A stretch of DNA of 55,196 bases, taken from positions 1-55,196 of the forward strand of contig SVJK01000007.1 of the NCBI GenBank assembly GCA_015069015.1, given 5' to 3'. Below, piece after piece: positions 36 through 54,471 of the stretch (the first letter of the stretch is position 1; the number at the start of each line of letters is the position of its first letter). The notes under the pieces are model-generated. The model was not told the origin of the DNA, made no database searches, and worked only from the letters and a program-made list of their open reading frames with translations. Both the position numbers and the translations under genes were made by a program. The DNA comes from Oscillospiraceae bacterium. Its GTDB lineage: Bacteria; Bacillota; Clostridia; UMGS1810.

Positions 36-124
36 GCTGACGCAACTGCTTAAGGCTGCACATCGTAGGCATGGATATAATGTGTTTGTCTTGAACCAAA
101 TTCTGTAATTTTATCTATAGTCTT

Positions 125-164
125 AAAAACCCCCTTACATTTCACATATGTAAGGGGGTTTTTT
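125..164. terminator. Strong bidirectional intrinsic terminator
   Basis: An 11-bp perfect stem pairs CCCCCTTACAT (130-140) with ATGTAAGGGGG (148-158) around a 7-base loop. It is flanked by AAAAA on the left and TTTTTT on the right, so it can act on both strands. On the minus strand it closes the secreted-protein operon that ends at 253; on the plus strand it would stop any convergent gene from the left. Confidence 0.85.
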
Positions 165-246
165 CTGTATAGGAAACTTCGTTCCTATACAGTAAAAAAC
201 AATTATATTGCCGTGCAAATTTTTTTGAAAAGCAAATTTGCTTTTC
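165..246. other. Two further hairpins between the operon end and its terminator
   Basis: CTGTATAGGAA (165-175) pairs perfectly with TTCCTATACAG (182-192), leaving a six-base loop. A 20-base perfect palindrome lies at 227-246 (arms GAAAAGCAAA / TTTGCTTTTC). With the terminator at 125-164 this makes three stable hairpins within 120 bases downstream of the last gene. They may be back-up terminators or structures that protect the 3' end of the mRNA. Confidence 0.55.
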
Positions 247-252
247 TTGATT

Positions 253-3200
253 TTACTTGATTACTGAATCAAGTTTCATATAATTGTTTTTGTTTATCAG
301 ATATGTTCGAAGAGTGTGAATATCTAAATCATAGTTTTCGGGAATTTTCAGGTTTATAACTGTGCTGTTTTCAGTCTGAGCATCTGTTTCAACAACTGAG
401 GTTTTAACTGATAAGAGTTTGTTATTTTCATAGATTCCCACAAGTACTATTCCTGTTTTTGTTGTGTCAGTCAGGTTGGTGATTTCCACGGAAACATTGG
501 CAGATTGCCCGGGAAGAAACTCCGGCACTCCAACATAGGAAATTCCGTATTTAGGTTCACGCACTTCAAAATCAACCTTATTGTCGCCACTTGAACCGTG
601 ACCAAGGGCTGTTTCAAGATTAATATATTCTATGGTACATTTTTCTCTTCCCGAGAAAGTCACAAGAGGTGTGAGCGTTGCCTCAAGAGTTTCAGAGTTG
701 TAACTGAAATCAAAGGCTGCATTTTTTCCGTTAACCTTAAAGATGAAATTGTCTTTTTTCACTGTAGACATTTTATCTGAGAACTTAAGAACTGCACTTG
801 CACCCTCCAGGGGGAATGAGTCAAGACCTTCGCTTCTTTCACCGTCTTTTTCCGTAAACTCTGTCACATCATAAGTCTGACCATAGTTGGTTATGGAAAT
901 ATTATCAATATAGTAGGTGCTTTCAAGGGTATTGCTGAAGTTCATGAATCTTGGAATGTTAATATAGAGAATGTTTGAAAACTTATCGCCAAGGTTGTGG
1001 TTTTTGGCTGTCATAACACCATCCACGTATACATCGCCTGTTTTGGTTTCAAGATTCATTACTGCCTTAACATTATACCATCTGTCCTTTTCAAAATTCC
1101 CGTTCGGTGCCAGATTGGATGCGCCTGTATTCTGTGCAGGACCTGCAACAAACCATTCTCCACCGCCACCGGTTTTTACAAAAAACAGTCGAACTGCTCC
1201 ACCATTGAAATTTTCAAATTTCACATCAAATTCATATACAACCCATCCGCCTGAAAATGCGTTTGATGTGCCTGAACCGGGGAATCTCATTTCCCAACCA
1301 AGCTTATCTGTACCGGACATAGAAACTTTCATACAATTGTCGTTGGTTTCGCTATCAACAACGATTTCAGGATCATAACCTTTGTTCCAATAGCTGTATT
1401 CAAAGAAATCAGATTGATGGAATTCTCCATCGTCAAATCCAAGGAAATAGCTTTTGCCGCTAACAGGATTATATCTTACAAAATCCAAAACAATTGGTTC
1501 TGCCTCATCGGCAACAAATCCATCTTCATCAATGATCTTTGCTGTCAAAGTATTATTTCCTGATACGCTGACAAAGGTAAATTCACCTTCGGAATCGCTC
1601 TCTCCTACTTTAATATCGTTCTGATAATATTCAATCTTTTCACCGGATAAAAGATTTGCGGTTGTTGATGTGGTGATTTTTGTTCCGACAAAACAATCAG
1701 AATCATATTCACCCACAAGACTTATGGAAATATCATCTCTGGGAGGTTCAACAAAGAATCTCCACATAGTTTCTCCGCTGGCACCGTCACCACGATATGT
1801 GTATTCTATCACGCAAAATTCATCACCTGAGAATGTTACAAGTGGTGTGAGTGTTACTTCATTGTCTGCAGAGTCATAACCAAAGTCGAAATCAATATTT
1901 TTTCCGCCTACTTTGAATTCAAAATCATCTTTAGCCATCGATGTCAGCATTTCGGAGAATGACAAAACTACACTTCCACCTTTGCGTGGGAAAGAATCAA
2001 GTCCTTCAGTTCTTTCGCCGTCAATCTCGGTATATTTGGAAACCTCATATGCACGGCCGTAGTTTGCAACACTGATGTTATCTATGAGATATGTACTGTG
2101 TGCATCATCTTCATAGTTTACAAACTTAGGAAGAGTGAAGTAGTTAATATTTGAAAAATCTTCTCCAAGATCATAATCTGACCACACGAGATTGCCATCA
2201 ACATACATATCCATCTCTTTGTCATCAAGATTTACTACCACTTTGATATTATACCATTTATTGGTCTCAAATGCACCATCGGAAGCTTTTGACCACTCTC
2301 CGGTATCTTTTGCAGGTCCATCACAGATAAATTCATCACTATCTGTTTTTATGGAGAACAGATTAACAGAGCCTGAGTTGAAGTTTTCAAATTTCACATC
2401 ATATTCATACACTACCCAACCGCTTGAGAATGTGTTTGAAAGACCGGATCCGGGGAATCTCATTTCCCAACCGTTATATTCTGCTCCGGATATGGAAACC
2501 TTCATACAATTATCATCGGTTTCTGCATCTGTAACTATCTCCGGAATATAGCCTTTTCCGGTAGTATTATAACCATAAAAATCATTCGCATCAAATGAAT
2601 TCGAATCAAATCCGAGAGAATATGTTTCACCTGACATTGGTGCAAATTTTGTAAACTCTAAAACTATTGAGTTTGACACAGCCACAACATCGCCGTATTC
2701 ATCAATTACTTTTGCTGACAACACATTTTCACCGGCAACACTATAGAAACTAAAATCGCCGTCGGTGTCGCTTTCGCCAACCTTTTCACCGTTGAGATAG
2801 TAAAAGATTTTTTCGCCTTCCAAAAGCTCTGCATTTGTGGATACATTAATTTTTGTTCCGAGGAAATTGTCAAAATCATATTCCCCTACAACAGTCATAG
2901 AAGGACCTTCTCTCGGAGGTGCAACTGCAAATTCAACATATGAATTACCAAAAGCACCCATTCCGTCTACAGTTTTAAGAGAAGAATACTCTATTTTACA
3001 TTCTTCACCACCAAGAAATCTTTCGGTAGGTGTGAGAATTGCTTCGTTATTATCGGAATCAAAGCTGAAATCAAAATCAACTTCTTCACCATCTGCTGTG
3101 AAAGTGAAGTCATCTTCGTTTATATCGGACATATCTCCGACAAACTTCAAAACTGCACTTGCACCCTTGTGGGGGAAGGAGTCAAGTCCTTCATATCTTT

Positions 3201-4176
3201 CATCACGGTACTCTGTGTATCCTGTAACACCATATCCCTCGCCGTAGCTTACAAGAGAAATGTTGTCGACACAGAATGTGCTTGCAGTATTGCCGTAACG
3301 CATAAATCTTGGAAGGTGTACAAAGTATACATTGGTGAAGTTTGTGCCGAAAGTGGCACTTTTAACCAGTTTGCCATCAACATAGCAATCACCGGTACGA
3401 TTGTCAATGTCAACTACAACCTTAACATTGTACCATCTGTTCTTTTCAAACTTGCCCTCAGGTGCCCATTGGGAATTACCTGTGCTTTCAGCCGGACCAC
3501 CGCCTACCCATTCTCCGCCGGTGGACGATTTGATAAAGAACAAACGTGCTTCACTACCATTGAAATTTTCAAACTTGACATCATATTCATATACAAGTAT
3601 GCCACTTTTGAAAATGTTGTGTGCTTCCTTGCCCGGATAACGCACTTCCCAGCTATTATAGGTTGAACCGGATATTGAGACCCTCATACAATTACTGCCG
3701 GTCTCATCATCCGCTACAACCTGAGGATCAGGGGCGCCTTTTGTGGTGGAATCATATGCAAAAAAGTAACTTTTGCTAAATACTCCATCATCAAAATCGT
3801 TTGAGAAACTCTCTCTTCCCGCTATGGGAGTATATCTCATGAAATCAAGGACAAGGGGTTCAGATGCACCGATTTCGGTGCCATCTGAACTAATTACCCT
3901 GGCAATGAGTTTGTTTCTTCCTGCTACGCTTTCAAAAGTGAACTCTCCGGCAGTTTCACTCTCTCCGACTTTTGTGCCGTTGAGGTAATATTCAATTATT
4001 TCGCCATCTGAAAGGGATGCATCGGATTCAACATTGATTTTTGCTCCCATAACGGTGTCATAGGGATACTCGCCCACAAGTGACAGTAATATTTCACCAT
4101 CTGCTATTGCCATTGCAGGAACGAGTGACATAATCATTGCGACTATAGTTATTAATGCTATAATTTTCCTTTTCAT
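253..4176 (-). CDS. Large secreted protein of three ~390-residue Ig-like/LamG-like modules
   Basis: This 1307-residue protein starts with a clear signal peptide (a lysine/arginine N-terminus, then a hydrophobic stretch ending near ALA-type residues 22-25). Three homologous modules follow, at about residues 31-428, 429-819 and 820-1204. Each has an Ig-like start (VGEY...GTKI, YYLNGTKVGES), a jelly-roll part resembling LamG/concanavalin sandwiches (VYEYDVKFENFN, RWYNVK, YVDG, IDNIS) and an SbsA/Big_5-like Ig domain (EGLDSFP..G.SAVLKF). Residues ~1205-1307 resemble a CARDB-like Ig domain. No catalytic signature, SLH or sortase motif is visible, so it is probably a released or non-covalently held glycan-binding protein. 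It is the last gene of the operon, 13 bases after the lyase gene and behind an AGGAGGAG ribosome binding site. Function beyond adhesion or binding is inference. Confidence 0.85.
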   Translation of the reverse strand: MKRKIIALITIVAMIMSLVPAMAIADGEILLSLVGEYPYDTVMGAKINVESDASLSDGEIIEYYLNGTKVGESETAGEFTFESVAGRNKLIARVISSDGTEIGASEPLVLDFMRYTPIAGRESFSNDFDDGVFSKSYFFAYDSTTKGAPDPQVVADDETGSNCMRVSISGSTYNSWEVRYPGKEAHNIFKSGILVYEYDVKFENFNGSEARLFFIKSSTGGEWVGGGPAESTGNSQWAPEGKFEKNRWYNVKVVVDIDNRTGDCYVDGKLVKSATFGTNFTNVYFVHLPRFMRYGNTASTFCVDNISLVSYGEGYGVTGYTEYRDERYEGLDSFPHKGASAVLKFVGDMSDINEDDFTFTADGEEVDFDFSFDSDNNEAILTPTERFLGGEECKIEYSSLKTVDGMGAFGNSYVEFAVAPPREGPSMTVVGEYDFDNFLGTKINVSTNAELLEGEKIFYYLNGEKVGESDTDGDFSFYSVAGENVLSAKVIDEYGDVVAVSNSIVLEFTKFAPMSGETYSLGFDSNSFDANDFYGYNTTGKGYIPEIVTDAETDDNCMKVSISGAEYNGWEMRFPGSGLSNTFSSGWVVYEYDVKFENFNSGSVNLFSIKTDSDEFICDGPAKDTGEWSKASDGAFETNKWYNIKVVVNLDDKEMDMYVDGNLVWSDYDLGEDFSNINYFTLPKFVNYEDDAHSTYLIDNISVANYGRAYEVSKYTEIDGERTEGLDSFPRKGGSVVLSFSEMLTSMAKDDFEFKVGGKNIDFDFGYDSADNEVTLTPLVTFSGDEFCVIEYTYRGDGASGETMWRFFVEPPRDDISISLVGEYDSDCFVGTKITTSTTANLLSGEKIEYYQNDIKVGESDSEGEFTFVSVSGNNTLTAKIIDEDGFVADEAEPIVLDFVRYNPVSGKSYFLGFDDGEFHQSDFFEYSYWNKGYDPEIVVDSETNDNCMKVSMSGTDKLGWEMRFPGSGTSNAFSGGWVVYEFDVKFENFNGGAVRLFFVKTGGGGEWFVAGPAQNTGASNLAPNGNFEKDRWYNVKAVMNLETKTGDVYVDGVMTAKNHNLGDKFSNILYINIPRFMNFSNTLESTYYIDNISITNYGQTYDVTEFTEKDGERSEGLDSFPLEGASAVLKFSDKMSTVKKDNFIFKVNGKNAAFDFSYNSETLEATLTPLVTFSGREKCTIEYINLETALGHGSSGDNKVDFEVREPKYGISYVGVPEFLPGQSANVSVEITNLTDTTKTGIVLVGIYENNKLLSVKTSVVETDAQTENSTVINLKIPENYDLDIHTLRTYLINKNNYMKLDSVIK

Positions 4177-4189
4177 ATATTACTCCTCC

Positions 4190-7100
4190 TTATTTCGCAA
4201 TAGTAACAACTTCTAAAATTGAGTTCCATGTGTTCAAAGTATTACCATGGCAGGAAAGTTTAACATATCTTCCTGATGCATTAACCGGGAAGTCTTCAAG
4301 TTCAGTGCTTTCACCGCTACTTTGACCTCGATATACTTCTGTATAGTTAATACCATCGTTTGACACGAGAATTTCAAACATTGTACTTCTGAGATTTCCT
4401 TCAAGGAACGCCATCATAAGTTTGTCGATATTCACTTCTCTTCCGAGATCCATAACAAGATATTCTGAAGTACCATCTGCAGACCAACGGGTTTTCAAAC
4501 TATAGTCAAAGAGGTTTGCAGGGTCATTTCCATCACTTGATGATGCATAGAAGGAAACAGGTTCCACAACTTTGCTGATGTCTATTCTGTCGCTGAGTGA
4601 GTCAACAGATGCTTTTTTGCTGATTTTCAAAATTCTTGCAAGGCTATCATACACTGTTGTGTAGCCAAGGATACTTGACAAATCAATGGGGTTCACATAG
4701 AGAAGACCATTATCTGCAATAAATGGTGCAGATGTGAGATTAATGGGAAGCTGATTGAATATTGCATAGGTACTTCCTACTGTTATAATCGCTTCATAGT
4801 TCTTGTTTTTCAAAACGTAGTTGTTACCGCTTTGAGTAACAGTTGCACCTCTTGCTACGAAATCATCAGCTGAAAGATAGGGCTGACCATCTTTTAAAAT
4901 TGTTGCCTGACGGTTATAGTCAAAGTTTCTTGCATTAACGTTGTAGATAAGATAATCACCAACACGTTTGATTTTGTCACTTCTGGGATAGGTAAACTGT
5001 GTAACCTCGGCATCATCAGAAGCCTTGGAAATTGTGTATGTTCCGGGTACGAGACTTGCAAATGCTGCATTGTTCTCTTCGGTAACTTCACAAACAACGT
5101 TTATGCCTGAACCTTCAATATTCCACTTACCAACAGCAAGATCGGTAATAAGAATACTCATTTTGTCGTAACCATTATTTTTTACTGTGAGAGTAAAATT
5201 CGTTGCAACGGGTTTTCTTGTTTTTGAAAACAGAACAACTTTGTCCATTGCAGTTACACCAACAAATGCGCCATTGTCTTCATAATACATTGGCAAATCG
5301 GGAAGTGCCTTTTTGGAATCGGTTACATACATTGCATTGAGGAAAATGTCATCACGAGCAGGGTTTTTGGGAGAAATTTCAAGTCTCCAATCACACTGTT
5401 CGTTATCATTATCACCGGTATCCTCGTTTGGATAGTTCTTTCCGTCTACCCAGCTGTCAAAGCCTTCACCACCGACTTTTTCGATTACATGCTCTTTGGG
5501 AAGCATTGTATTAATTACAAGTTTACCGGAATAGTCGTAGTCGTCTCTTCTGACAATTGTCTGACTTCCATTAACTTCAGGTTCCTGAACAGCCTGCAGA
5601 TTCCATGTCTTTTTAAATGACTTATCCTTTGCAGCTATGTTGTCATAGCAAACAAATATGAGAGGATAATCCGTGTTGAAGGTGTTTATCGCTACCATTG
5701 AACGAACATATTCAGGAACTGTGTCTGTGTAGGCATCAGCGATGTTGGATTTCATATAGCTGAATTCCGGTGTTTCTTTGTTGGGTCCTATATACATTCC
5801 TTCGATGAATGATTCATCGGGATGAGAGAAGAATTGTTCGAGAGTATTGGTGTTTTTCTCAATTCTCTGTCCACCATCGTTAGAATAGTCTCTTACGGTT
5901 CCTCCTCGGAACATAGGTTCTTCATTAGGATTGTATACGGTCATACAGTTTTTGGAGATTGTTCTTCTGTAGTAGTTGAAGTAGTGGGATACTCCCCATC
6001 CGCCTTCTTTACCCTGATATGTTCCGCCGTGACCTGCAAGAGTACCTTTGTAGTATATCTGGAAGTTACCGATATCAGAGTGTTCATGGTCATGGTCACC
6101 GACAAGTTTTTCCTGACCGTTCATAAATACAACTGCTGTGTCACTATCTTTACCAGTTGTCCATGAGGTTCTCATAAACATGGCTGTAAGAGGATATGAC
6201 GTTGTATATGTAAGAGGACGTTCATTTCCTTCGTCGTCAGGATATGCAATACCTTCATCAGGATCAAGAAGAAGGAGTGTGTGAATTCCGTTATCATATA
6301 CGCTGGAACCGGGTGAATAGTTTCTGATAGACAACTGTTTGATATATTCACCTCTGAGGTGATCGTCTCCATAATATGCACCAAAGAGCATCATAGCATA
6401 GTCATTGGAATTATAGTACGGACCTGTAGTTTTGGTGAACTGAAGATATGAGTCACCATCTTCAGACCAGAATCCTGACGGGAGTCTGTCATGAATCCAA
6501 CGGAATGCAGGTTTATCGGAATTGGTTCCCATAATATCAGGATAGCCCATACGGTCAAAGATTATCTGACAAATCTGCTCCCAAGCAATTCGCACCGGAC
6601 CGTATGCACTACCTGCAGGGTGGTTATAGCTGTCAAAGAACATCTTTCTTGTCTGGAACATATCCTGACTCATCATACCAACTGCAAGGTTATACATTTC
6701 CGGGTCTTCATCATAGATTGCTATACCTGCTGTAAGCTGGAAGTAGAATACTTCACCTTCACCACCATGACCTGCAAAGGTTTCGGTAGTTGTGGTAGGA
6801 TATTTAATTTCCATAAGGGATGCGGTTTTCTTCATATATGCAATGAAGGTTGCCTTATCCTCGGGAGTTAAGACATCATAGCACCAGTCATACACAAGAC
6901 CGCTCGCTGCAAGAGTTGAGCCAATACTTCTTGTAATGTCTCCAACCGATGTATCCCAAACGAGTGTTTCATACATATCAAACATATGCTGAACTGTTTC
7001 TCTTGCGTGATTATCATCAACTTCTCCTATGAGATAGAGATATGCTCTGCATTGAATGTTAAAAAGAGCTGCCCAGGAAAAATTGTTACTTTTTCCTTTA

Positions 7101-7882
7101 TCGGGCATGTGACAGTCAATTTCCTGCATACCGCGAACTCTGACCTGATCTAAAACAGGCTTTAAGACAGGATGATTTGCATTTGCAACAAGTTCGGGTA
7201 TCATTTCCTCTGTTGCAAAAATTCTCGGATGAGTATTTGCAGGAGGAGTCATTTCAGGAAGAGGATACGGGAGCTGCGAAGGAAGACCAATCATAGTGTT
7301 TGGAAGGTCATCTTTTCCCTCAGGCACCCAGGTAAGGTCATTTGTAATCACAAACTTGTCGATAACAAATCCTGAGTCACGGTATTTGATATTATATTCA
7401 AATGTATCTTCAACCATTTCACTTTTGCCGATGTTTACCCAATGGTATTCAGGGCTTCTCTTAACCCCGAACCACCATTCCTTATAGGCATCCATTTTTC
7501 CATATTTGAAAAAGAATGAGTCTGCATTTTTGATTCGTACCCATATGTTATAGTATCCTCTTTCAAGGGGAGGGATATCTATAATAAGGCTCATTGTAGG
7601 ATCTTTAATTTTCGTGGAATCAGACTGAAATCCTGTGCCCGATGTTGTGAGGGCAAGACCGCCGGATGCTGCAGAATCTTCAACTATTGTGGCATCTTTG
7701 CCATATTCAATTCTTTCACCTTCCACAACGAGGTTGCCGTTTTCTATCTTTGCGTGTTCCACTTCCGGAAGTGTAAGATTTGCGTTTTCAACTGCATCAG
7801 AATATGAAATCTGATAGGCTGATGTACTAATGCAGGAAAACATCATACACGCCATTATGATAAGTGCAATAATTTTCTTCAT
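4190..7882 (-). CDS. Secreted heparinase II/III-like polysaccharide lyase with stalk and F5/8C domains
   Basis: This 1230-residue protein has a signal peptide (1-22) and an N-terminal beta domain (~40-205) that may bind carbohydrate. An alpha/alpha-toroid region follows (~215-560), introduced by the HPRIFAT motif common in heparinase II/III-like proteins. Then comes a beta-sandwich with the family signature GDHDHEHSDIGNFQIYYKG. Residues ~985-1085 look like a copper-amine-oxidase N-terminal-like stalk (two short repeats, no catalytic role). Residues ~1100-1230 form an F5/8 type C (CBM32-like) domain with TRWSADG and ILVSNDGINYTEVYRG. Family members cleave uronic-acid polysaccharides by beta-elimination; the actual substrate cannot be read from sequence. 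It lies 20 bases downstream of an SLH protein gene and 13 bases before the modular protein gene, so the three are probably co-expressed. Confidence 0.85.
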   Translation of the reverse strand: MKKIIALIIMACMMFSCISTSAYQISYSDAVENANLTLPEVEHAKIENGNLVVEGERIEYGKDATIVEDSAASGGLALTTSGTGFQSDSTKIKDPTMSLIIDIPPLERGYYNIWVRIKNADSFFFKYGKMDAYKEWWFGVKRSPEYHWVNIGKSEMVEDTFEYNIKYRDSGFVIDKFVITNDLTWVPEGKDDLPNTMIGLPSQLPYPLPEMTPPANTHPRIFATEEMIPELVANANHPVLKPVLDQVRVRGMQEIDCHMPDKGKSNNFSWAALFNIQCRAYLYLIGEVDDNHARETVQHMFDMYETLVWDTSVGDITRSIGSTLAASGLVYDWCYDVLTPEDKATFIAYMKKTASLMEIKYPTTTTETFAGHGGEGEVFYFQLTAGIAIYDEDPEMYNLAVGMMSQDMFQTRKMFFDSYNHPAGSAYGPVRIAWEQICQIIFDRMGYPDIMGTNSDKPAFRWIHDRLPSGFWSEDGDSYLQFTKTTGPYYNSNDYAMMLFGAYYGDDHLRGEYIKQLSIRNYSPGSSVYDNGIHTLLLLDPDEGIAYPDDEGNERPLTYTTSYPLTAMFMRTSWTTGKDSDTAVVFMNGQEKLVGDHDHEHSDIGNFQIYYKGTLAGHGGTYQGKEGGWGVSHYFNYYRRTISKNCMTVYNPNEEPMFRGGTVRDYSNDGGQRIEKNTNTLEQFFSHPDESFIEGMYIGPNKETPEFSYMKSNIADAYTDTVPEYVRSMVAINTFNTDYPLIFVCYDNIAAKDKSFKKTWNLQAVQEPEVNGSQTIVRRDDYDYSGKLVINTMLPKEHVIEKVGGEGFDSWVDGKNYPNEDTGDNDNEQCDWRLEISPKNPARDDIFLNAMYVTDSKKALPDLPMYYEDNGAFVGVTAMDKVVLFSKTRKPVATNFTLTVKNNGYDKMSILITDLAVGKWNIEGSGINVVCEVTEENNAAFASLVPGTYTISKASDDAEVTQFTYPRSDKIKRVGDYLIYNVNARNFDYNRQATILKDGQPYLSADDFVARGATVTQSGNNYVLKNKNYEAIITVGSTYAIFNQLPINLTSAPFIADNGLLYVNPIDLSSILGYTTVYDSLARILKISKKASVDSLSDRIDISKVVEPVSFYASSSDGNDPANLFDYSLKTRWSADGTSEYLVMDLGREVNIDKLMMAFLEGNLRSTMFEILVSNDGINYTEVYRGQSSGESTELEDFPVNASGRYVKLSCHGNTLNTWNSILEVVTIAK

Positions 7883-7902
7883 AGTAAATCGCTCCTTTCA
7901 GA

Positions 7903-10527
7903 TTATTCATAAAGTACCATGAACTTAGGATCGCCGGAGGTACTGTATATAAACAGATATCTTGTTTCCGGATATGACATAAATTCCTGAGGAAGTGCTG
8001 TCTTTAATACTTTTTTCCTATTTTCTGTTACAACTTTATAGTAAGCATAAGTCTCGGGTTTCATATATGCCTCAATGGTACCTGTGCCGTCGAGTTTGAC
8101 AAGCATACTTTCTTCATCGCTCCAGGTGATTTCACCAAAAAGATATCTTTTGGATGATGAATATCCGCTTATGGAACCCGAAAGAACTCTTTCTGATTCA
8201 TCAAAGGCATATGAAACAGAATATATCTTATTGGCATCTTTTTTCTGTATTTTCAAAACGTCTCCGCATTGGGGAAGTTCTCCGCCAAGACCATCCAAAA
8301 CGACTTGTTTGGAACCAAAAAATTCAACATCTGTTTTTATGTTCTTGCCTTTAATTTTTACAGATGGAATTCCTTCATCATCCATTGTTTCTGTGACTCT
8401 TTCAACAACCACCACAGTTTCTGCGCGTCCTGCTGTCCCCTCATCTTTCAAAACAACAAGGGAAGCCACTCTGCTGTTTTTCCTTGTTCCATAGGCTTCT
8501 GCAACAGGATATTTCTGACCTGTGACAGGTGTAAAGGTTCTGTAGAGAACATCATCATCTCTGCTTTCTTCTTCAGGTACGATAATGATTGGTGTAGCAT
8601 TTAAGAGAATCTGTCCGCCAAAACAATTTGTGGGTGCCTGGCGGTACTCATAATCATTGGAAGAATCAGCAAAGATTGTTCCCTGGAATTTATAGAAACC
8701 GTCAATTGCTCCATCTGCATTGTTACAGATATAAATCCAGTTGATTTTTCCGTCTTCGTTTCTTCTGTACATTATTGCCTGACGTTTAACTCTTCCCTCG
8801 GGAGTGTATCCGATTTTATTCATAACTTCCGCAGGAGTGCAAACGGAACTATCAATGCCATAGAATGTTGTCACCTTATCTGCAAGCCAGAATGATTCAA
8901 AAGATCCTCCGCTTGTGAAAATCTTTACAAGAATATCATTTTCACCGTCCATACCTTGTCCGGGTTTTGCGTCGGTGATATAACCAAGGCTTGTTGTAAG
9001 ATATTTTGAAACATCAATATCTGATACAAGACCGTCTTTGTTGAAAACAAGTTTCATTGTTTTGCCAACCTCAACTTTTGGAAGTTGAGTGCTGTTGTTG
9101 AGAGATTTTGATGATTTAAAAACAGTGCCGCCTATTGTGAAATAGTGTATGCCGTTTCCATGTTCATAGCCATCGAGAATGCCTGTGTATTCATCAATTG
9201 TGACTATAACAGATGTTACTGTTCCATCAAGATTTTTAGATACACTGAGTACGTTTCCTCTCTGGATTTTGTCAAGGCTTACAGGCTCGCCGTTAAGGTT
9301 TCTTATGAGAGCTGTTTTACCGTCGGTATAATCTCCCAGATCTATCATCTCTGTGTCACGGTACATTGGAATGACTACATTGTTCACTACCGAACTTACT
9401 GTATAGGTTTCATAGGCATCGATAAAAACAAAATCTGCAATACCATCGTCATTGTTATCTATGCTTGTAAGGCTTCCGTCAAGATTCTGATCTTTCCATG
9501 GGTTAAAGATTGATGCGGGGTAGGTTTTGCAAATAGTATTATTGTACAATACTCTTGTGTGTCCGTCCGTTTTTATTTTCTTTTCTTTGTTTCCCACATA
9601 GTACACAATACCGTTTGAATATGTCCCCATATCCTCATTGTTGATTTTAATTATTTCGTTTCCGTATTCTTCAAAATACAGAATGAAATTCTCACCTTTT
9701 TCGACTTTATAATATACATTTGCACAAAGTCCGAGTTTCTGAGAAAGATCTTTCCTTTTGGGATCATAACTGAATTTTGTTTTTTCAATTACAAGTTCAT
9801 CAAAATCAAGGTCATTGGTATAGGAAAGGTCGTTTCCGTGAACTCCTTTTACTATCCCTCTCATAACTTTAACATCAAGATATTTTTCAAGATAGGTGCT
9901 ATAGCCATTTTCTATGTATACTTCTGTTCCATCGTCGCGAAGAACAGGCTGTTCATACATGGCAGAGTTTACGGCACTTTTAAAAAGCATTCCTACAGTT
10001 TCGCCTGTCACATAATCCTCAGGTGATATTTTCAGCGTGTGGTTATTGAGTCCGAGAGTGTTGGCAACATACATATATCCTGCAGGATATCCGCCAAGAC
10101 TCTGAGCCTTTGCATCATAGCCAAGGAATGAAACAAAAGTTTTTATGAGTTGGTTATAGGTTACAAGACCTTCGGGATTAAACTGACCGTTGCCGGTGCC
10201 ATTCATGATTTTCGCATCGGCTACTGCATCTGCAAATAGTGCATCGGCATAGTCAACATCAGAGAAATGTCTGCTTGCACTGCTGCTTTCTTTTGATGTG
10301 TTTGCAAGAAGAAGATTTGCAAAACATCTTGCAAGTTCAATTCTTTTTATGGCACTTGCAGGATTTATATCTTCAGACATAATTCCTACTGAAACTGCAA
10401 AATCATAATCGGGTGTATATTCTGGACTTGAAACTACTGATGTTTGTCCGTCATTTGCAAAAGCATATGCTGACACAGAAAAGATTATTGCTACAAAAAG
10501 AGCAATTGATATTAATCTTTTTGTCAT
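7903..10527 (-). CDS. SLH-domain surface protein, N-terminal anchor, unknown body
   Basis: This 874-residue protein has a signal peptide (~1-24) followed at once by S-layer homology repeats (~40-73, 88-138, and a weaker one to ~190). The second is the clearest, with FSDVDYADALFADAV...GTGNGQFNPEG. SLH repeats bind pyruvylated secondary wall polymers and hold proteins on the cell surface. Residues ~200-874 are beta-rich, with repeated lysine-glycine-aspartate turns and no recognised catalytic motif. The ATG directly follows the stop of the upstream gene (TAAATG), and the ribosome binding site (GGGGGTG) lies inside that gene, so translation is probably coupled. A role as surface scaffold or partner of the lyase encoded next is inference from operon position. 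Confidence 0.8.
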   Translation of the reverse strand: MTKRLISIALFVAIIFSVSAYAFANDGQTSVVSSPEYTPDYDFAVSVGIMSEDINPASAIKRIELARCFANLLLANTSKESSSASRHFSDVDYADALFADAVADAKIMNGTGNGQFNPEGLVTYNQLIKTFVSFLGYDAKAQSLGGYPAGYMYVANTLGLNNHTLKISPEDYVTGETVGMLFKSAVNSAMYEQPVLRDDGTEVYIENGYSTYLEKYLDVKVMRGIVKGVHGNDLSYTNDLDFDELVIEKTKFSYDPKRKDLSQKLGLCANVYYKVEKGENFILYFEEYGNEIIKINNEDMGTYSNGIVYYVGNKEKKIKTDGHTRVLYNNTICKTYPASIFNPWKDQNLDGSLTSIDNNDDGIADFVFIDAYETYTVSSVVNNVVIPMYRDTEMIDLGDYTDGKTALIRNLNGEPVSLDKIQRGNVLSVSKNLDGTVTSVIVTIDEYTGILDGYEHGNGIHYFTIGGTVFKSSKSLNNSTQLPKVEVGKTMKLVFNKDGLVSDIDVSKYLTTSLGYITDAKPGQGMDGENDILVKIFTSGGSFESFWLADKVTTFYGIDSSVCTPAEVMNKIGYTPEGRVKRQAIMYRRNEDGKINWIYICNNADGAIDGFYKFQGTIFADSSNDYEYRQAPTNCFGGQILLNATPIIIVPEEESRDDDVLYRTFTPVTGQKYPVAEAYGTRKNSRVASLVVLKDEGTAGRAETVVVVERVTETMDDEGIPSVKIKGKNIKTDVEFFGSKQVVLDGLGGELPQCGDVLKIQKKDANKIYSVSYAFDESERVLSGSISGYSSSKRYLFGEITWSDEESMLVKLDGTGTIEAYMKPETYAYYKVVTENRKKVLKTALPQEFMSYPETRYLFIYSTSGDPKFMVLYE

Positions 10528-12219
10528 TTATTTCACACCCCCAAAAAATTTCATAGAGTTATATATGATTACTGCAGCCTCTGCACGAGTCATATTATCA
10601 GCAGGACAGAAAAGATTGTTTCCTCTGCCGGACACAATTCCCTTGCCTGCAAGGAATGCTACACCTTCTTTTGCCCAACTGCTGATACTTGTGTTATCGT
10701 CAAAGTTTGTTTTATATTCTTCAAATTCTCCGCCTTTATTAATCGCACGGGCAATGATTGTTGCAGCCTGTTCACGGCTGATGTTTCCTTTTGGATTGAA
10801 TATGCCGTCTGCAACTCCGGACACTATTCCTTCTTTTGCCGCAGATGCAATATAGGGAACTGACCATCCGCTTACATCACCAAAATCACATTCAACATCT
10901 CCGGGATTGCCAAGAAAGGCAAGAACAACCATTTTTGTAAATTCTTCTCTTGTTACCACATCAGAGGGCACAAATTCGGTTTTTGACTTACCGGAAATTA
11001 TTCCTGCTTTGTATAGATTGGATACTGCCTCCTTTGCCCAGACTGTGTTTTCCATATCATTGAATGGAAGAACGATGGCATCGGGATTTACCACATATCC
11101 ATCACCTTTAATGTCTGAAACAGGAACATTTACACTGCCCTGAGAATCGGATGAACCGAGGCTTCCGCCTCCGCCACCGCCTCCGCCGCCTTCGGAGGAA
11201 TCGTCACCTTTAACAAGATTTTTATACTCTTTTAAAAGTTCGTCGAGAGTTTGCGAATCCGAATTTGAAAGTGCAAGATATATTTCGTCTTTGTCACTTA
11301 TTTTTGAAAGTTTCTTAAGGTCAAATCCTGCCTCTTTATATTCATCACTGTATTTTTCAAAATAGGTGCTGACATGACCGAATCCAAGATTTTCTCCATA
11401 GTTTGTAATAATATTTAAAAGAACCTGATCGTTAAATCTTTCTTTGATTTCATTAACACTGCCATAATCTTTCTTGATTATCCTGGAATTTACCGCCCTT
11501 TTACCGGCAGAAGAAAGTGAATTCACATAGTCTTCATAAAGGTCTGTGTCTTCTATGTCAAGATATGTTGCACAAGTCAGTTCATCATCCTCAAAAAGTG
11601 ACGGTACCCCTTCGTTAAAGGCTGCTACCATCAGAGATTCTTCAAGACATTTAAGCATTTCGTCCACGTCATCTTCAAAGGGAGCAACCGATTCAAGGAC
11701 TTCTGCTATTGCACTTTTGGATGTTTCAAGATATATATCAGAATTATTCATACTGTATATCTTATATGCCTGAGGAATCACACTAAGTATATCATCGGAA
11801 TTCTCGTTGAGAGATTCTATAACTTCCTGCTTTTTATCAGAAAAATAAAAACTGAAAGTTGATTTTTCTGCATCGTTTAACTTGTCTGTAATTACAAGCA
11901 AAGTGAACTCTCCACCACAGTTTTCTTCGGCAAGTTCTCCCATATCAAGGTCTGACATTGTAATGTCTACAGAGTACGAGCCATCAACGCACTCATCGTC
12001 TCCATAAAACTGTATGGCATATTCAGATGCATCTGTTACGATGTCTGCCTCGGTATATCCGGGGTTTAATATCATAACAGAAACCGTCTCTGCACCGGAT
12101 GATTTACCACTTACATTTATGATGTCATTTCCTGCATCTTTGAGCAATACGTCTGCCCCGCTTACTGAAATGCCAAGTGTGAAAATCACCATAATTGTTA
12201 AACATAAAATTCTTTTCAT
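10528..12219 (-). CDS. SLH-domain surface protein, C-terminal anchor with poly-glycine linker
   Basis: This 563-residue protein is the first gene of the secreted operon. The start at 12219 is preferred because MKRILCLTIM begins a normal signal peptide; an ATG at 12231 would add four residues but sits only two bases from the GGA of the ribosome binding site. Residues ~25-330 are acidic and unrecognised. A run of nine glycines at ~344 forms a flexible linker. Three good SLH repeats follow (~385-563), with ENTVWAKEAVSNLYKAGIIS, FGDVSGWSVPYIASAA and WAKEGVAFLAGKGIVSG. The next gene also carries SLH repeats but at its N-terminus, so the operon encodes two wall-anchored proteins of opposite polarity. 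Confidence 0.85.
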   Translation of the reverse strand: MKRILCLTIMVIFTLGISVSGADVLLKDAGNDIINVSGKSSGAETVSVMILNPGYTEADIVTDASEYAIQFYGDDECVDGSYSVDITMSDLDMGELAEENCGGEFTLLVITDKLNDAEKSTFSFYFSDKKQEVIESLNENSDDILSVIPQAYKIYSMNNSDIYLETSKSAIAEVLESVAPFEDDVDEMLKCLEESLMVAAFNEGVPSLFEDDELTCATYLDIEDTDLYEDYVNSLSSAGKRAVNSRIIKKDYGSVNEIKERFNDQVLLNIITNYGENLGFGHVSTYFEKYSDEYKEAGFDLKKLSKISDKDEIYLALSNSDSQTLDELLKEYKNLVKGDDSSEGGGGGGGGGSLGSSDSQGSVNVPVSDIKGDGYVVNPDAIVLPFNDMENTVWAKEAVSNLYKAGIISGKSKTEFVPSDVVTREEFTKMVVLAFLGNPGDVECDFGDVSGWSVPYIASAAKEGIVSGVADGIFNPKGNISREQAATIIARAINKGGEFEEYKTNFDDNTSISSWAKEGVAFLAGKGIVSGRGNNLFCPADNMTRAEAAVIIYNSMKFFGGVK

Positions 12220-12397
12220 ATCAGATTCCATATCCTTTCATCAATGAATATTGTGTTTTTTCGTCCTTATCAATTGTGTTTTAATGTTTTCAATCAGTTA
12301 ATTGATTCGGAAACACATCAAAAATCACCTAAAATGTCTTCTTATCATCCTAAATTAATACTTTTATTTAATAATAAGGTATTACCCTGTTTTTTAC

Positions 12398-12426
12398 AAT
12401 ATAATATTTTGGCTTAATCATTGCAA
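12398..12426 (-). promoter_or_regulatory. Sigma-A-type promoter of the secreted-protein operon
   Basis: On the minus strand TTGCAA (12421-12426) and TATATT (12398-12403) are separated by exactly 17 bases. The first gene starts at 12219, giving a 5' leader of about 170 bases in an AT-rich stretch without genes. No terminator was seen between the upstream phosphodiesterase gene and this promoter, so read-through is also possible. Confidence 0.6.
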
Positions 12427-12451
12427 TTTTTTACGTTCATACAAAGAACTG

Positions 12452-13231
12452 TCATTTTTTATTTACAAGGGATTTGCCTTCCCACTCCGGTGCAGGTTGT
12501 ATGCCCATAACATCTGCAATTGTCGGAGCGATGTCAAGAAGACTGACATTTTCAAGTTCTTCTCCGGGCACAAAGTTTTCACCCATAAAAAACATTGGAA
12601 TTATCATATCTTCCGGCATATCTGTGCCATGGCTTCTTCCGTGACCGCCGTGGTCTGCAGTGACTATAATTGTATATTCATCACCAACAGTTTCATATAC
12701 TTTTTTAACATTTTCAATTCCTCTGCGGATGCAGTCAAGATATGTTTCTGTCATCCAGCCTGAATCATGACCGCCTTTTTCATCTGTTTCAACCATATAG
12801 AGAAAAACAAAATCGGGGTGTGCAAGTTCGATGTAGGCAAGTGCTCTGTCTGTCAGCATTGCATCGGTGTGATCAAATGTATATGCATGAATATATTCAG
12901 ATGCTTTGAGTGAACAAGGCTTTCCTATTGCTCTGATTGGTTCCCAACCGTAATACATGGCTGATCTTTTATCTGCTGCGAGAAGTTGTTCCAAAAGACC
13001 GTTTACAGGTCTTACGGGAGTTACATATTCATTTGAAAGAGTTCCGTGTCTTTCGGGTGGAATACTCTGAAACATTGACAGGTGGCAAGGAAGTGTGATT
13101 GAGGGGTAAACAGTTCTTGCATCAAATGTGTATGAAGACATTTTTATGAGTTCATCCAGAAAATCACTGTTACACATTTTCAGACCATCCGGTCTCATTC
13201 CATCAATGGATATAAGGATAACTTTGTTCAT
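12452..13231 (-). CDS. Alkaline-phosphatase-superfamily phosphodiesterase (NPP-like)
   Basis: This 259-residue protein has no signal peptide, so it should be cytoplasmic. It opens with the metal-binding LISIDGMRPDGL. The candidate nucleophile is the threonine in YPSITLPCH (as in nucleotide pyrophosphatase/phosphodiesterases), and the second metal site is ADHGGHG. A sulfatase would need a C/S-x-P/A-x-R motif, which is absent. It is shorter than typical ectoenzymes (about 400 residues) and seems to be a minimal core. It follows the GH39-like gene by 35 bases with an AAAGGTG ribosome binding site, so the two probably form an operon. The enzyme may remove a phosphodiester or phosphate group from imported sugars; that is inference from context. 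Confidence 0.8.
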   Translation of the reverse strand: MNKVILISIDGMRPDGLKMCNSDFLDELIKMSSYTFDARTVYPSITLPCHLSMFQSIPPERHGTLSNEYVTPVRPVNGLLEQLLAADKRSAMYYGWEPIRAIGKPCSLKASEYIHAYTFDHTDAMLTDRALAYIELAHPDFVFLYMVETDEKGGHDSGWMTETYLDCIRRGIENVKKVYETVGDEYTIIVTADHGGHGRSHGTDMPEDMIIPMFFMGENFVPGEELENVSLLDIAPTIADVMGIQPAPEWEGKSLVNKK

Positions 13232-13266
13232 GATGTGTTCACCTTTCTCTTATTGTCATTTTGATA

Positions 13267-14577
13267 TTATATTTCTTTTATCATTATACAGGAATTCACG
13301 TCAATAGTGAGATGCAAATCTTCAGTTGTTTCAACAAGGGTTCCGTCAGTCTCTTTATCAAGAAGATATATTTCGTATTTTCCTTTTCTATGAAAATCAA
13401 CAAAAATCTCTTTGGGAGACAAAGAATCTGAATCGCTGTAGTAAGTGATTATGGTGAGGGTTTTACCACTATTGTCAACACCGCAAAGAGAATATATGTT
13501 TTCGATGTTTTCGTAAGATGAAATCTCACCTTTCATATCATAGAACATTCCGTACCAATACAAGGGATAGTATGTTTTTCGTGGTTCATATGTATACAGG
13601 TCAAAGACTCCGCAGAAAACTGCCGGTCTTGTGTCATAATACATAAGCATATCTATGGGTGAATGTTGGGATGCGCTGATACAAGCCATTGTGAATGCGG
13701 CTCCCTTGACGGATTGGATGGTTTTTATGGTGTCTACAAAACCAACAGTCCAGTCTTTAACATAGTTCCATTCGTTGAGAATACTTTCTGAATCACCATA
13801 TCCATATTTGTCAAGAAGATTTTGCAGCCTCTTTGATTTTTCAATCATCTGAACGGGTTCTGTGCAATATATGTGCCAGGAGAAAAAGTCAAGGGGCACA
13901 TTTCTTCTTTGCATTTCACATAGAAAATCTTTCGCCCAGTCTTCATCCCACGCAAGAGCAGGCCCACCGATTTTCAGGTGTGGAAATCTTTCCTTGAGAT
14001 GTTTTGCTGCGATTTCATAAAAGTCAAAAAATTCTGTTTTAACCCCACCCCATGTGCATTTGTTGAGGCTTTCATCACCGTCAAGGTCAGGTTCGTTCCA
14101 TATTTCCCAATAATCTATATCAAGTTTGAAACCTTCTGCCCAGCCTTGTGTGTAGTGACGGATAACATGCTCGCAAATTACTGCCCATTTTTTAAAATCT
14201 TTCGGCGGAAGTGTTGCATGTTTTTTTATCTGATGTTCTATAGTCTCGCCAAGTCTGAAAAACGTTTTTGTTCCTGCATCAAGTGTGCAAAGAACCGATT
14301 CATCGGTGCAGGCAAAATCGTAGGATGCCGGATCTTCAGGATCAGCATTAAAATCAGGAAAAATCTTTGAAATGTCGTGGCTATAGGGACCGCCATATAT
14401 CCCTATAACACCGGAATCGTGATTTCTGGAATATGGTATGTTTGCTGCTTTGTAGTTTTCAAAGTTAGTCCTGTGCTGACTCATTGCATGTCTCTTATGC
14501 CACGGACCGCCATTGGTTGCATTTAAAATCTTAAAAGGTGTGACAGGCTTAGATAAATCAAAACTCAACTTTTCCAT
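13267..14577 (-). CDS. GH39-like glycoside hydrolase
   Basis: This 436-residue cytoplasmic protein resembles the TIM-barrel core of GH39 beta-xylosidases and alpha-L-iduronidases. The WEIWNEPD motif around residue 160 carries the likely acid/base glutamate, LKIGGPALAW follows, and SILNEWNYV around residue 265 carries the likely nucleophile glutamate. A short beta domain closes the protein (~350-436). The ATG is preceded by a strong TAGGAGGAAA site. It is first in a two-gene operon with the phosphodiesterase and divergent from an AraC regulator. The neighbouring lyase makes an iduronidase/glucuronidase-like role attractive, but xylosidase activity is equally possible. Confidence 0.75.
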   Translation of the reverse strand: MEKLSFDLSKPVTPFKILNATNGGPWHKRHAMSQHRTNFENYKAANIPYSRNHDSGVIGIYGGPYSHDISKIFPDFNADPEDPASYDFACTDESVLCTLDAGTKTFFRLGETIEHQIKKHATLPPKDFKKWAVICEHVIRHYTQGWAEGFKLDIDYWEIWNEPDLDGDESLNKCTWGGVKTEFFDFYEIAAKHLKERFPHLKIGGPALAWDEDWAKDFLCEMQRRNVPLDFFSWHIYCTEPVQMIEKSKRLQNLLDKYGYGDSESILNEWNYVKDWTVGFVDTIKTIQSVKGAAFTMACISASQHSPIDMLMYYDTRPAVFCGVFDLYTYEPRKTYYPLYWYGMFYDMKGEISSYENIENIYSLCGVDNSGKTLTIITYYSDSDSLSPKEIFVDFHRKGKYEIYLLDKETDGTLVETTEDLHLTIDVNSCIMIKEI

Positions 14578-14954
14578 ATGTATTTCCTCCTAACGATATG
14601 TGAGTTATAACTGATTCTGCCAGCAACAAATCCCCATGCTGATTATAATATATTTTTTTGCAAAATCATATACCCAAACGTGCTATTTTTTTTGTCCAAA
14701 TAAGTTCAATAATTTGCAATCATAAATTTGCAGTTGTTTTATTTATGGACTGTTTATTACTTGCAGATGCCATGCCCTATTCCTCACAAGACATAGCATT
14801 ACATATTATAATATTACCACACCAAGGGTCTGTGAACAATACCAGTCAGTGATGATTTGTACTCAAAAATTTGCATAGGTGAATTTTCGGTATTGATTTT
14901 GATTTTGACAAATGATATACTGCAGTAAACGCTATAACAGGAAGGTACAGCCAC
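14578..14954. promoter_or_regulatory. Divergent regulatory region between GH39-like gene and AraC gene
   Basis: This 377-base gene-free region carries divergent promoters. On the plus strand TTGATT (14893-14898), 17 bases and TATACT (14916-14921) lie 34 bases before the AraC start. On the minus strand a perfect TATAAT lies at 14642-14647, with a poor -35 region. The octamer AATTTGCA occurs three times in direct orientation (14711-14718, 14725-14732, 14868-14875), the first two 14 bases apart. AraC proteins usually bind direct repeats, so these are candidate operators. Confidence 0.5.
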
Positions 14955-15788
14955 ATGGAAAATAAAAAAGCAAACTCAATCAGCACAAAACAATTGCTTC
15001 GTATTGTCAGAGGTGCCTGCAATCCCATCCTTCATTCTCACTATGAAGCCGAAATATTATATTGCATTAACGGCGGAAGTAACGTTACCGTTGATGGTGT
15101 TGAACATCATCTTGAAAAAGGATGTGCTGTGGTAATTTGTCCCCTTACCACCTATAAAAATGTTACTGAAAATGCTGACACTGAAATGTTTGTCATAAAA
15201 CTTGATTCGGAATTTCTCGGATCAAGTTATCAAGAATTAGCGTCATACACACTTGAAAGCCCCTTTCTTTCTCCTGAAAGTGCAAATGTACATGAATGTT
15301 GTCTGTTAAAATCTATAGAAAAACTGTATCTTGAATATACACACGAAAAAATTGCTTTCGATTGGATGATGCAAGGACTCATGTGCGAAATATTTGCACA
15401 GATTTTAAGATATATGCCGAGAAAAAAGCGAAACATCAATGGAGAACACATTTTCAAAAACCATATTAAGATACACAAAGTTTTTGACCTTGTGGGGAAA
15501 GAATACAACAAGAATATAACTGTCAAAGAGGCGGCTGATTGCGCAGGTTATGATCATTGTGCTTTCTGCAGAATTTTCAAATCAGTCACCGGCATGACAT
15601 TTCACAGTTATCTGAATTCATACAGAATTAACGTTGCAACAAGACTTTTATCATCGAGAATGTATTCTGTCAGTGAAGTTGCACAGATTGTAGGAATTCC
15701 CGTCGCAAAAACTTTCAGCAGGCTATTTAAAGAACACATTGGAATGTCTCCGTCGCAATACAAGGGCAATTTTGCAAAAAAAGATTAA
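14955..15788 (+). CDS. AraC-family transcriptional regulator
   Basis: This 277-residue protein has an N-terminal cupin-like sensor domain (~15-110; HSHYEAEILYCINGG, a typical sugar-binding arm) and a C-terminal double helix-turn-helix domain (~180-275). The second helix-turn-helix matches the AraC signature: SVSEVAQIVGIPVAKTFSRL followed by FKEHIGMSPSQYK. Members activate sugar catabolic genes on binding the sugar. It is divergent from the GH39-like/phosphodiesterase operon, its likely target. The ATG is nine bases after AGGAAGG. A 12-base inverted repeat (14885-14896 and 15800-15811) flanks the gene. Confidence 0.9.
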   Translation: MENKKANSISTKQLLRIVRGACNPILHSHYEAEILYCINGGSNVTVDGVEHHLEKGCAVVICPLTTYKNVTENADTEMFVIKLDSEFLGSSYQELASYTLESPFLSPESANVHECCLLKSIEKLYLEYTHEKIAFDWMMQGLMCEIFAQILRYMPRKKRNINGEHIFKNHIKIHKVFDLVGKEYNKNITVKEAADCAGYDHCAFCRIFKSVTGMTFHSYLNSYRINVATRLLSSRMYSVSEVAQIVGIPVAKTFSRLFKEHIGMSPSQYKGNFAKKD

Positions 15789-15817
15789 TAACATTGACCA
15801 ATACCGAAAAAATCTAA

Positions 15818-15895
15818 AAGAGGCTATCTCTATCACCGTATAATGTGTACAAACTCAGGGTTTGTCAAGTTATACTGTTAATGAGACAGCCTCTT
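15818..15895. terminator. Long composite hairpin between convergent genes
   Basis: Nested arms pair over 78 bases: AAGAGGCT/AGCCTCTT outermost, then CTC/GAG, GTATAA/TTATAC and ACAAAC/GTTTGT around a five-base loop. A T-rich tail follows on the right. It lies between the AraC gene (plus) and the CPBP gene (minus) and probably terminates both. The nested multi-step architecture is longer than a normal terminator. Confidence 0.6.
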
Positions 15896-15900
15896 GATTT

Positions 15901-16869
15901 TTATGCAAATATGCTTATCACAAAAAGAATTACCGTTAGAATTACATATGTTATAAATCCGGCATTTTTTGAAAGTGTCCTTTCGGGGTGAATCAGAATT
16001 CCGCTTACTGTGAAAAACTTAAGACGTTTCATATATGAAACCATAAAAAATATTCCGACAGGGAATGAAATCATCGTCAAAAGTGTGTATGCATATGCAA
16101 CAAAGTTCTGAACAGTTTCGTATCCTGCGCCGCTTTGAGATATATAGAGAGGAATGACAGAGCCAAAAAAATTCAGTATTGCGTGAATCAGGATACAAAA
16201 CCTCAGTTTTCCATATACGCAATATACATAAGAAAGCAATATTCCTACGGCAGATGCATAGAAAAACTGATAAAAATTCCCGTGAAATGCTCCAAAAACC
16301 AAGCCCGAGAATATGACTGCAAAGTTCGTTCCATATCTTGTCACGCGGGTAATTATCAGTTTTCTGAACAAAAACTCTTCGGTAACTGGTGCAATTATTA
16401 CAACTGCAACAAAAATCTGCCATATGGGATATCCTGAGACAATTTCTTCTACAACATTGGTCATTTCCGTGTCGGTAATCTCCCCTACATATGCAGAAAC
16501 AATATTACCAATGACCGATCCTGAAAACATTAAAAAGATGGATATTATTACAAATGAAAAAAATTCAAAAACCGTCATTTTTCTCATTACAACAGGTTTT
16601 TGAGGTGTTAATTTCCGTGACAAAATTATAAAAATAAATATTGCAAGTATTGTGTATAAATCATTTAAAAGAAGTGATATGAAAGAATCATCATATACAT
16701 CAATGGGAAAAAAGCGCAAAAGACCGGTTATCAGAATTATTAGTATGTATGCACAAACAGACGAAGTGACAATCCTGAAAAACAGTTTGGAAACATATTT
16801 TTTCTCTCTTTTTATTTCCTGTGGTGTATCATCAAGAACATACACGTCGTTTGTATTATTAAATGTCAT
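15901..16869 (-). CDS. CPBP-family intramembrane metalloprotease
   Basis: This 322-residue membrane protein has about eight hydrophobic segments. The three CPBP/ABI motifs are present in order: EEFLFR (EExxxR, ~residue 170), FGAFH (FxxxH, ~195) and HAILN (HxxxN/B, ~230). They place the zinc-dependent active site inside the membrane. Bacterial members process peptides or confer self-immunity; the target here is unknown. The ATG at 16869 is chosen over an upstream GTG because CAGGTG lies six bases before it. It is downstream of the YcdB/SLH gene, with a long hairpin in between. Confidence 0.85.
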   Translation of the reverse strand: MTFNNTNDVYVLDDTPQEIKREKKYVSKLFFRIVTSSVCAYILIILITGLLRFFPIDVYDDSFISLLLNDLYTILAIFIFIILSRKLTPQKPVVMRKMTVFEFFSFVIISIFLMFSGSVIGNIVSAYVGEITDTEMTNVVEEIVSGYPIWQIFVAVVIIAPVTEEFLFRKLIITRVTRYGTNFAVIFSGLVFGAFHGNFYQFFYASAVGILLSYVYCVYGKLRFCILIHAILNFFGSVIPLYISQSGAGYETVQNFVAYAYTLLTMISFPVGIFFMVSYMKRLKFFTVSGILIHPERTLSKNAGFITYVILTVILFVISIFA

Positions 16870-16896
16870 ATTAATCACCTGTTTATAAAATTCCCC

Positions 16897-16941
16897 AAAG
16901 GGACTGTAAATTAATTTGCTGAATTAATTTACAGTCCCTTT
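16897..16941 (-). terminator. Perfect 20-bp hairpin downstream of the YcdB/SLH gene
   Basis: AAAGGGACTGTAAATTAATT (16897-16916) pairs without mismatch with 16922-16941 around a five-base loop. On the minus strand the stem is followed by GGGGAATTTT rather than a clean T tract. It may therefore be a weak terminator or attenuator that lets some transcription into the CPBP gene. Confidence 0.55.
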
Positions 16942-16945
16942 TAGT

Positions 16946-54423: not shown

Positions 54424-54471
54424 GATTTCTCCTATCTTAGATCTGCTGTAATTTAGATTGCATATTCTTCT

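Follow-up and report, generated by a model that had tools for sequence, protein, structure and literature searches.

Near one end of a 55,196-nucleotide stretch of DNA from an Oscillospiraceae bacterium – contig SVJK01000007.1 of assembly GCA_015069015.1, the whole stretch being referred to as the window – four closely spaced genes encode two proteins with S-layer homology (SLH) repeats, a heparinase-like lyase and a very large repetitive protein. An earlier note, made from the letters alone, had taken these genes for an operon devoted to glycan degradation at the cell surface. Is this what the locus is and, if so, what is the part of the two SLH proteins? Our answer starts from the observation that the core of the operon family is the pair formed by these two proteins – here termed the SLH-triple protein and 'big' – which co-duplicates and exists in many copies. 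Judging from sequence, we lean towards reading the operon as a wall-displayed unit for the capture and lysis of polysaccharide, one of a co-duplicating family that resembles the SusCD polysaccharide utilization loci (PULs) but is neither a PUL nor a cellulosome.

The operon and its core pair

The window begins at base 1 of its contig (C14), and the metagenome-assembled genome (MAG) to which it belongs comprises 2.15 Mb and is 86% complete. The operon runs from 12231 down to 253 as four co-directional genes on the minus strand. In order of transcription these encode the SLH-triple protein (567 aa; 10528..12231, or from an inner ATG at 12219), 'big' (874 aa; 7903..10527), a heparinase II-like polysaccharide lyase (1230 aa; 4190..7882) and a triplicated LamG (ConA-like)/Big_5 protein (1307 aa; 253..4176), with intergenic gaps of 0, 20 and 13 bases. 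The SLH/'big' junction reads TAAATG, and purine-rich sequence resembling a ribosome-binding site is present in the short gaps before the lyase and LamG genes. A minus-strand hairpin of the Rho-independent terminator type lies 3' of the last gene (118..185; -26.3 kcal/mol, z -5.67, with none of 200 shuffles equally stable). All four proteins carry a hydrophobic N-terminal stretch that, by eye, resembles a signal peptide. With its four open reading frames (ORFs), short gaps, TAAATG junction and hairpin, the locus has the organization of the four-gene surface operon that the earlier note described.

The locus is not unique: three further copies of the order SLH, 'big', heparinase II-like lyase, LamG/Big_5 are found in the same MAG, on contigs C83 (locus L002), C21 (L007) and C58 (L009), making four with the window. 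Outside this MAG the same order is seen at L023 and, with the lyase doubled, at L021. The fourth gene is more distant in both, its assignment resting on a hidden Markov model (HMM) of the LamG protein (55 and 72 bits, compared to 625-712 for the genome's own single-unit copies) and on a Big_5 domain; Pfam detected no LamG domain in the fourth gene of L021 or L023, nor in that of L002. In length and score the 'big' ORFs of L021 and L023 equal those of G011 and G015, genomes of the same family but of another genus. The gene order that the earlier note proposed to look for elsewhere thus recurs – four times here and, in looser form, in two MAGs from a different genus – and cannot be said to lack conservation.

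Copies of 'big' were defined as all ORFs (called by a simple longest-ORF rule, mainly in MAG sequence) that scored more than 200 bits against the 'big' HMM in the fetched loci, and their same-strand neighbours were then checked; the HMMs for the pair and the lyase were built from this genome's own copies. Because loci were picked for encoding 'big', the frequency of pairs describes 'big' copies and not all SLH genes. After removal of L110 (a duplicate of L028), an SLH-triple gene was found directly upstream of 'big' at 51 of the 84 places where any gene precedes it, with a median gap of 1 base, and directly downstream at 1 of 81. Pairs make up 10 of 14 copies in the own genome, 17 of the 20 sampled from the congener G001 and 9 of 12 in G025 (another family of the same class); the figures are 3/8 for G024, G031 and G032 jointly and 13/38 for public loci. 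G001 and the other genome sets are samples, that is, the best-scoring 'big' places among those listed. At the split locus L006 of the own genome the SLH-triple and 'big' genes share one run, five genes apart. Matches to the 'big' profile occur in all 16 genomes examined of the order (11 to 55 each) and in 32 of 40 relatives, some of these matches falling in the SLH part of other proteins.

The members of a pair have diversified together. Distances between the N-terminal parts of SLH-triple proteins correlate with distances between 'big' bodies among the ten own pairs (Mantel r 0.935, none of 5000 permutations as high), among all 23 pairs (r 0.832, 0/5000) and among the 13 pairs of other genomes alone (r 0.617, 4/5000). 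At the seven heparinase II-type loci the distances between lyases correlate in turn with those between 'big' proteins (r 0.94, 24/5040 permutations) and between SLH N-terminal parts (r 0.849, 27/5040). Identity among the four own operon copies is 34-40% for the pair proteins vs 51-56% for the lyase.

Paired copies are also associated with genes active on glycans. A heparinase-superfamily gene – scored as a gene in the same-strand run with at least 60 bits on the genome's own HMMs – accompanies 9 of 10 own pairs, 12 of 17 pairs in G001 and 1 of 3 in G024, G031 and G032; for unpaired copies the count is 0/3 in G001 and 1/25 in public loci. Pfam scans of 60 operon members and neighbours (a hand-picked, non-random set) found GH20 in the pair operons L008, L028 and L106, a rhamnosidase in L112, pectate-lyase-like genes in L027 and L126, a WbsX gene in L041 and GH130 in the split locus L006. 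Regulators are represented by a histidine kinase (L024) and an AraC-type response regulator (L026), and uptake by ABC-importer genes, for solute-binding protein or permease, in L045 and L025. The last bear on the absence of a transporter that the earlier note had stressed: among the nine ORFs scanned between 253 and 19012 there is no Pfam match to a transporter, nor to a sugar kinase, so that both absences hold for the window locus; related pair operons do contain importer genes, and the missing transporter is therefore a local feature and not one of this kind of operon.

Of the 88 'big' bodies placed in a quick tree, 52 are paired, 29 stand alone and 7 are undetermined. The tree contains a window-type clade of eight members from four genomes (SH-aLRT 100). 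All eight are paired, and seven have a heparinase II-type lyase; the eighth (L022) runs off the end of its contig. Another clade, of 25 members (SH-aLRT 95), unites 18 of the 29 unpaired copies with all 7 undetermined ones; its branches are mostly short, it spans several families, and some of its records bear the names Monoglobus and Ructibacterium. Long branches, by contrast, carry most of the paired copies. The label paired or alone requires 10 changes over the tree (mean of 23.9 when shuffled; the starred branches force 2), and with that number of changes and many long branches the tree does not prove a single origin of pairing.

A stand-alone homologue of 'big' (949-997 aa) lies beside a divergent SLH gene at L032:9662-12511, at L048:9533-12526 and in relatives, again in several families and on mostly short branches. 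This homologue is a candidate for the main S-layer protein of these Clostridia, and the simplest reading would be that of a conserved S-layer-like protein plus a diversifying paired form.

The four proteins and their surroundings

The SLH-triple protein ends in three SLH repeats (Pfam SLH, 125 bits, three stretches). From Pfam, AlphaFold and Foldseek its predicted order of domains is a hydrophobic N-terminus (by eye), an Ig/FnIII-like domain, a helical domain of about 210 aa, a Gly-rich linker and the SLH triplet; the match of the N-terminal region to Ig/FnIII-like domains is weak (E about 0.005 or worse). TRxE is the SLH motif with the characteristic arginine, and this residue is present in each of the three repeats in 23 of 23 pairs. 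The genome has two matches, at the level of family only, to PF04230, which we take to be the family of the pyruvyl transferase CsaB.

The SLH part of 'big' is less obvious: Pfam gives one weak SLH match (E 2.7e-4; 21.3 bits, cut-off 20.8). In the predicted structure (mean pLDDT 79) residues 34-215 align to the whole SLH trimer of SpaA (Z 15.6, 3.6 Å, 153 residues), and the layout appears to be a hydrophobic N-terminus (by eye), a diverged SLH trimer at about 34-215 and a beta-rich body of about 650 aa. The two SLH anchors of the earlier note can thus be recognized, the first by three Pfam stretches and the second by a weak match plus a predicted fold. The SLH arginine of 'big' is kept in repeat 1 in 20 of 23 pairs and is absent as a conserved residue from repeats 2 and 3; 'big' may therefore bind wall polymer through a single groove, or lean on its SLH partner. 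The body matches no family in Pfam or NCBIfam. Neither of two folds considered for it was retained: apart from SLH structures, Foldseek matched the whole chain to proteins of DDB1 type and to others, mostly at a root-mean-square deviation above 20 Å, matches taken as spurious, and an OB-type fold for residues 700-874 (VIA-align Z about 6-7) lies within background and is not claimed.

Residues 211-927 of the lyase align with heparinase II of Pedobacter heparinus (PDB 2fuq; E 1.6e-104). The catalytic residues of that enzyme are His202, Glu205, Tyr257 and His406, according to the excerpted text of PMC12088678; their equivalents in the lyase are H372, E375, Y427 and H599, mapped by hand on the alignment with a single offset of 25 that fits all four. 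All four residues compared are therefore present, in keeping with the heparinase-like lyase of the earlier note. Since the score against NCBIfam HepB (453.7 bits) falls below the equivalog cut-off of 600, the protein is not filed as HepB; and because the same fold serves alginate lyases and other glycosaminoglycan lyases (PMC12088678, in the same excerpts), heparin was not accepted as the substrate. The protein further contains Pfam HepII_C and a C-terminal F5/8-C (CBM32-like) domain, and a stalk-type domain, PF07833, scores just under its cut-off (24.0 vs 24.2 bits). Next to the sister operon at L007 stands a second heparinase II-type paralogue (L007:11713-14922), in which Thr occupies the position of the catalytic His (H599) and Phe that of H601, a position held by His in most relatives and by Ala in L023. 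Given these changes the paralogue is possibly non-catalytic, and may be a binding version of the enzyme.

The 1307-aa protein, with three LamG stretches in Pfam, presumably binds glycan. The triplication reported in the earlier note is real, the units being 49-56% identical over 380-389 aligned columns; counterparts in the sister operons of the genome consist of a single unit (445, 462 and 521 aa).

Upstream of the operon lies an intergenic region of 220 bp and 25% G+C (12232..12451), the likely site of the promoter on consensus matches alone. Minus-strand matches are found at 12399-12371 and 12426-12398, but single matches carry little weight because the region holds 72, compared to 48.5 in shuffles. 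Separate promoters for each gene, which the earlier note had named, together with unrelated expression, as a refutation, have no room in gaps of 0-20 bases; promoters inside genes are beyond the power of the consensus scan. Next come, on the same strand, genes resembling a phosphodiesterase/alkaline phosphatase (12452-13231) and GH39 (13267-14577) in Pfam/NCBIfam scans, which possibly share the regulon of the operon, and a divergent AraC-family regulator identified by Pfam (14955..15788, plus strand); at the sister pair L005 an AraC gene stands 41 bp upstream. Beyond the AraC region, at 16946-19012, is a further SLH protein with a YcdB/YcdC repeated domain (PF16244). The far end of the window (50780-55194) encodes a UvrD-type helicase, an AAA_15/OLD-TOPRIM ATPase and an AbiEii-type gene, the first two of which we take to resemble a Gabija-like defence pair adjoining an abortive-infection gene.

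Capture unit, S-layer or scaffold

If the operon is a capture-and-lysis unit, the mechanism that we infer – as regards secretion, wall attachment, complex formation, substrate and uptake – would run as follows. The SLH-triple protein would anchor through its three intact repeats to pyruvylated secondary wall polymer and present its Ig-like and helical domains. 'big', whose SLH trimer has diverged and whose beta-rich body is long, and which is a putative relative of the conserved stand-alone S-layer-like protein, would form with it a patch of wall specific for a substrate or an enzyme. At this patch the lyase (with its CBM32-like module) and the LamG protein would work on a uronic-acid polysaccharide, and the unsaturated oligosaccharides would be finished by GH88-type enzymes (PF07470 has seven matches in the genome) and imported by transporters encoded elsewhere. 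A bolder version is put forward tentatively, as possible rather than probable: the pair would be a dedicated Gram-positive glycan-capture complex, equivalent to SusCD in function, derived from a stand-alone S-layer protein and, in an order of Clostridia from animal guts, expanded until a genome held at least ten co-evolving copies, each of them matched to its own set of enzymes.

Several points weigh against a capture-and-lysis unit. Co-diversification reflects joint inheritance, not contact; no docking module joins the lyase to the pair, and the lyase could equally be a free secreted enzyme. No known fold was recognized in the model of the 'big' body, and the paired sequences come in the main from MAGs. 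At L067 the neighbours are of heparinase II type (578 and 630 bits), yet 'big' falls outside the window-type clade. The association with heparinase-superfamily genes is also seen at L003 and L006, two of the four unpaired copies of the own genome, and as it reaches 0 of 9 pairs in G025 and 5 of 13 public pairs, the coupling is lineage-bound, although genome-derived HMMs may miss distant members. Because the LamG protein of the window itself scores 61 bits on the heparinase HMMs, we recounted at 150 bits or more: the numbers become 9/10 for own pairs, 9/17 for G001 and 4/13 for public pairs, part of the association in G001 being due to weak or partial matches. Unpaired copies, moreover, are often part of runs no longer than two genes; of the 7 unpaired public copies whose run comprises at least three, 1 has a heparinase-superfamily gene. 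Fifteen of the 60 scanned members and neighbours have no Pfam match, and some others bear no relation to glycans, for instance a Clp-type ATPase at L002. Finally, candidate importers are few across the MAG, which is rich in lyase genes (six matches to BPD_transp_1, five of them over cut-off, and one to MFS_2).

Much of the same evidence can be read in terms of the S-layer itself. Alternative SLH/'big' pairs would then coat the cell, their switching or diversification being a defence against phages, immunity or predators; the lyases would remodel polysaccharides of self or neighbour rather than serve feeding. The faster divergence of the pair proteins than of the lyase in the same four operons speaks for such a variable coat, as do the clade of mostly short branches across families that holds 18 of the 29 unpaired copies – the behaviour of a structural S-layer protein – and a 'big' body that matches no carbohydrate-binding or catalytic family. 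However, paired copies adjoin varied glycan genes, importers and regulators of sugar type, and lyase distances track those of the pair, so that we regard a variable S-layer as unlikely.

Neither the lyase nor the LamG protein has an SLH match (Pfam), and a motif scan found LPxTG in none of the four operon proteins; the SLH proteins are encoded alongside them, and the lyase carries its C-terminal stalk and CBM modules outside the region matching heparinase II (211-927). These features would suit a pair that acts as a cell-bound scaffold and keeps the lyase and the LamG protein together much as a cellulosome would. Against this, no cohesin or dockerin match was obtained in the four proteins (Pfam, E up to 0.01; the remaining genome was not searched for either), and we consider the scaffold improbable. 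Of the scaffold-plus-enzyme degradation unit of the earlier note, an operon that degrades glycan at the surface and has two SLH anchors is supported, and for the scaffold no docking module was matched in the four proteins; the unit's separation from cellulosomes and from the PULs of Bacteroidetes is upheld, there being no cohesin, dockerin, SusC or SusD match (Pfam) in the four proteins. That abundant SLH wall proteins – 87 SLH matches in the genome – merely happen to be co-transcribed in loose clusters, without acting together, is very improbable, as loose clustering does not fit an adjacency of 51/84 upstream vs 1/81 downstream or a Mantel r of 0.935.

Comparison with known systems

In the portions of the open-licence literature covered, including parts of PMC12163728, PMC12871809, PMC12088678, PMC10656541 and PMC10026933, no description of an SLH/'big' pair was found, nor anything joining Gram-positive PULs (gpPULs) with the S-layer, or Monoglobus with S-layer homology and polysaccharide. 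Excerpts of PMC12871809 tie SLH repeats to the wall attachment of carbohydrate-active enzymes (CAZymes) in Bacillota, and those of PMC10026933, a paper covering Monoglobales and the S-layer, report few SLHs in the majority of its MAGs. Compared to heparinase II (PL21) of P. heparinus, our lyase aligns over the catalytic region and keeps the equivalents of H202, E205, Y257 and H406, but differs in an extra N-terminal region, the stalk and CBM32-like modules and a HepB score below cut-off.

SLH-displayed CAZymes are known from Paenibacillus, and Kim et al. are said to have described them in Monoglobus pectinilyticus (ISME J, 2019). The operon shares SLH repeats with these systems, and the stand-alone 'big' homologue is present in records under the name Monoglobus; unlike these systems, the operon places SLH on two separate partners that lack enzyme matches, and its lyase has none. 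Cellulosomes likewise degrade polysaccharide while bound to the cell, by means of cohesin and dockerin: the likeness would hold if our proteins are displayed as proposed, whereas neither module was matched in the four of them. In a gpPUL one locus supplies a degradative enzyme, a regulator and a transporter. Here too a single operon with enzymes has a regulator nearby, and ABC-importer genes occur at L045 and L025, but an SLH pair stands at the centre, and the window copy consists of a lyase and a nearby AraC gene, with no transporter among the nine ORFs scanned (253-19012).

The comparison closest to the capture-and-lysis reading is with SusC/SusD, the co-duplicating, multi-copy surface pairs in the PULs of Bacteroidota. 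As in those, a surface pair co-duplicates in many copies, which are accompanied by different glycan-active genes and sometimes by a regulator; unlike those, each partner is a wall protein with SLH repeats, and such import genes as were found, at L045 and L025, belong to the ABC type. To our knowledge, no marker comparable to SusCD is in use for Bacillota. If our reading is correct, the pair would provide such a sequence marker for polysaccharide loci, callable in many uncultured gut genomes; two protein families, one without a Pfam or NCBIfam model for its body, would become candidates for glycan capture, and the evolution of the S-layer would be linked to feeding. The SLH/'big' pair may be to Gram-positive bacteria what the paired genes for glycan capture are to Bacteroides.

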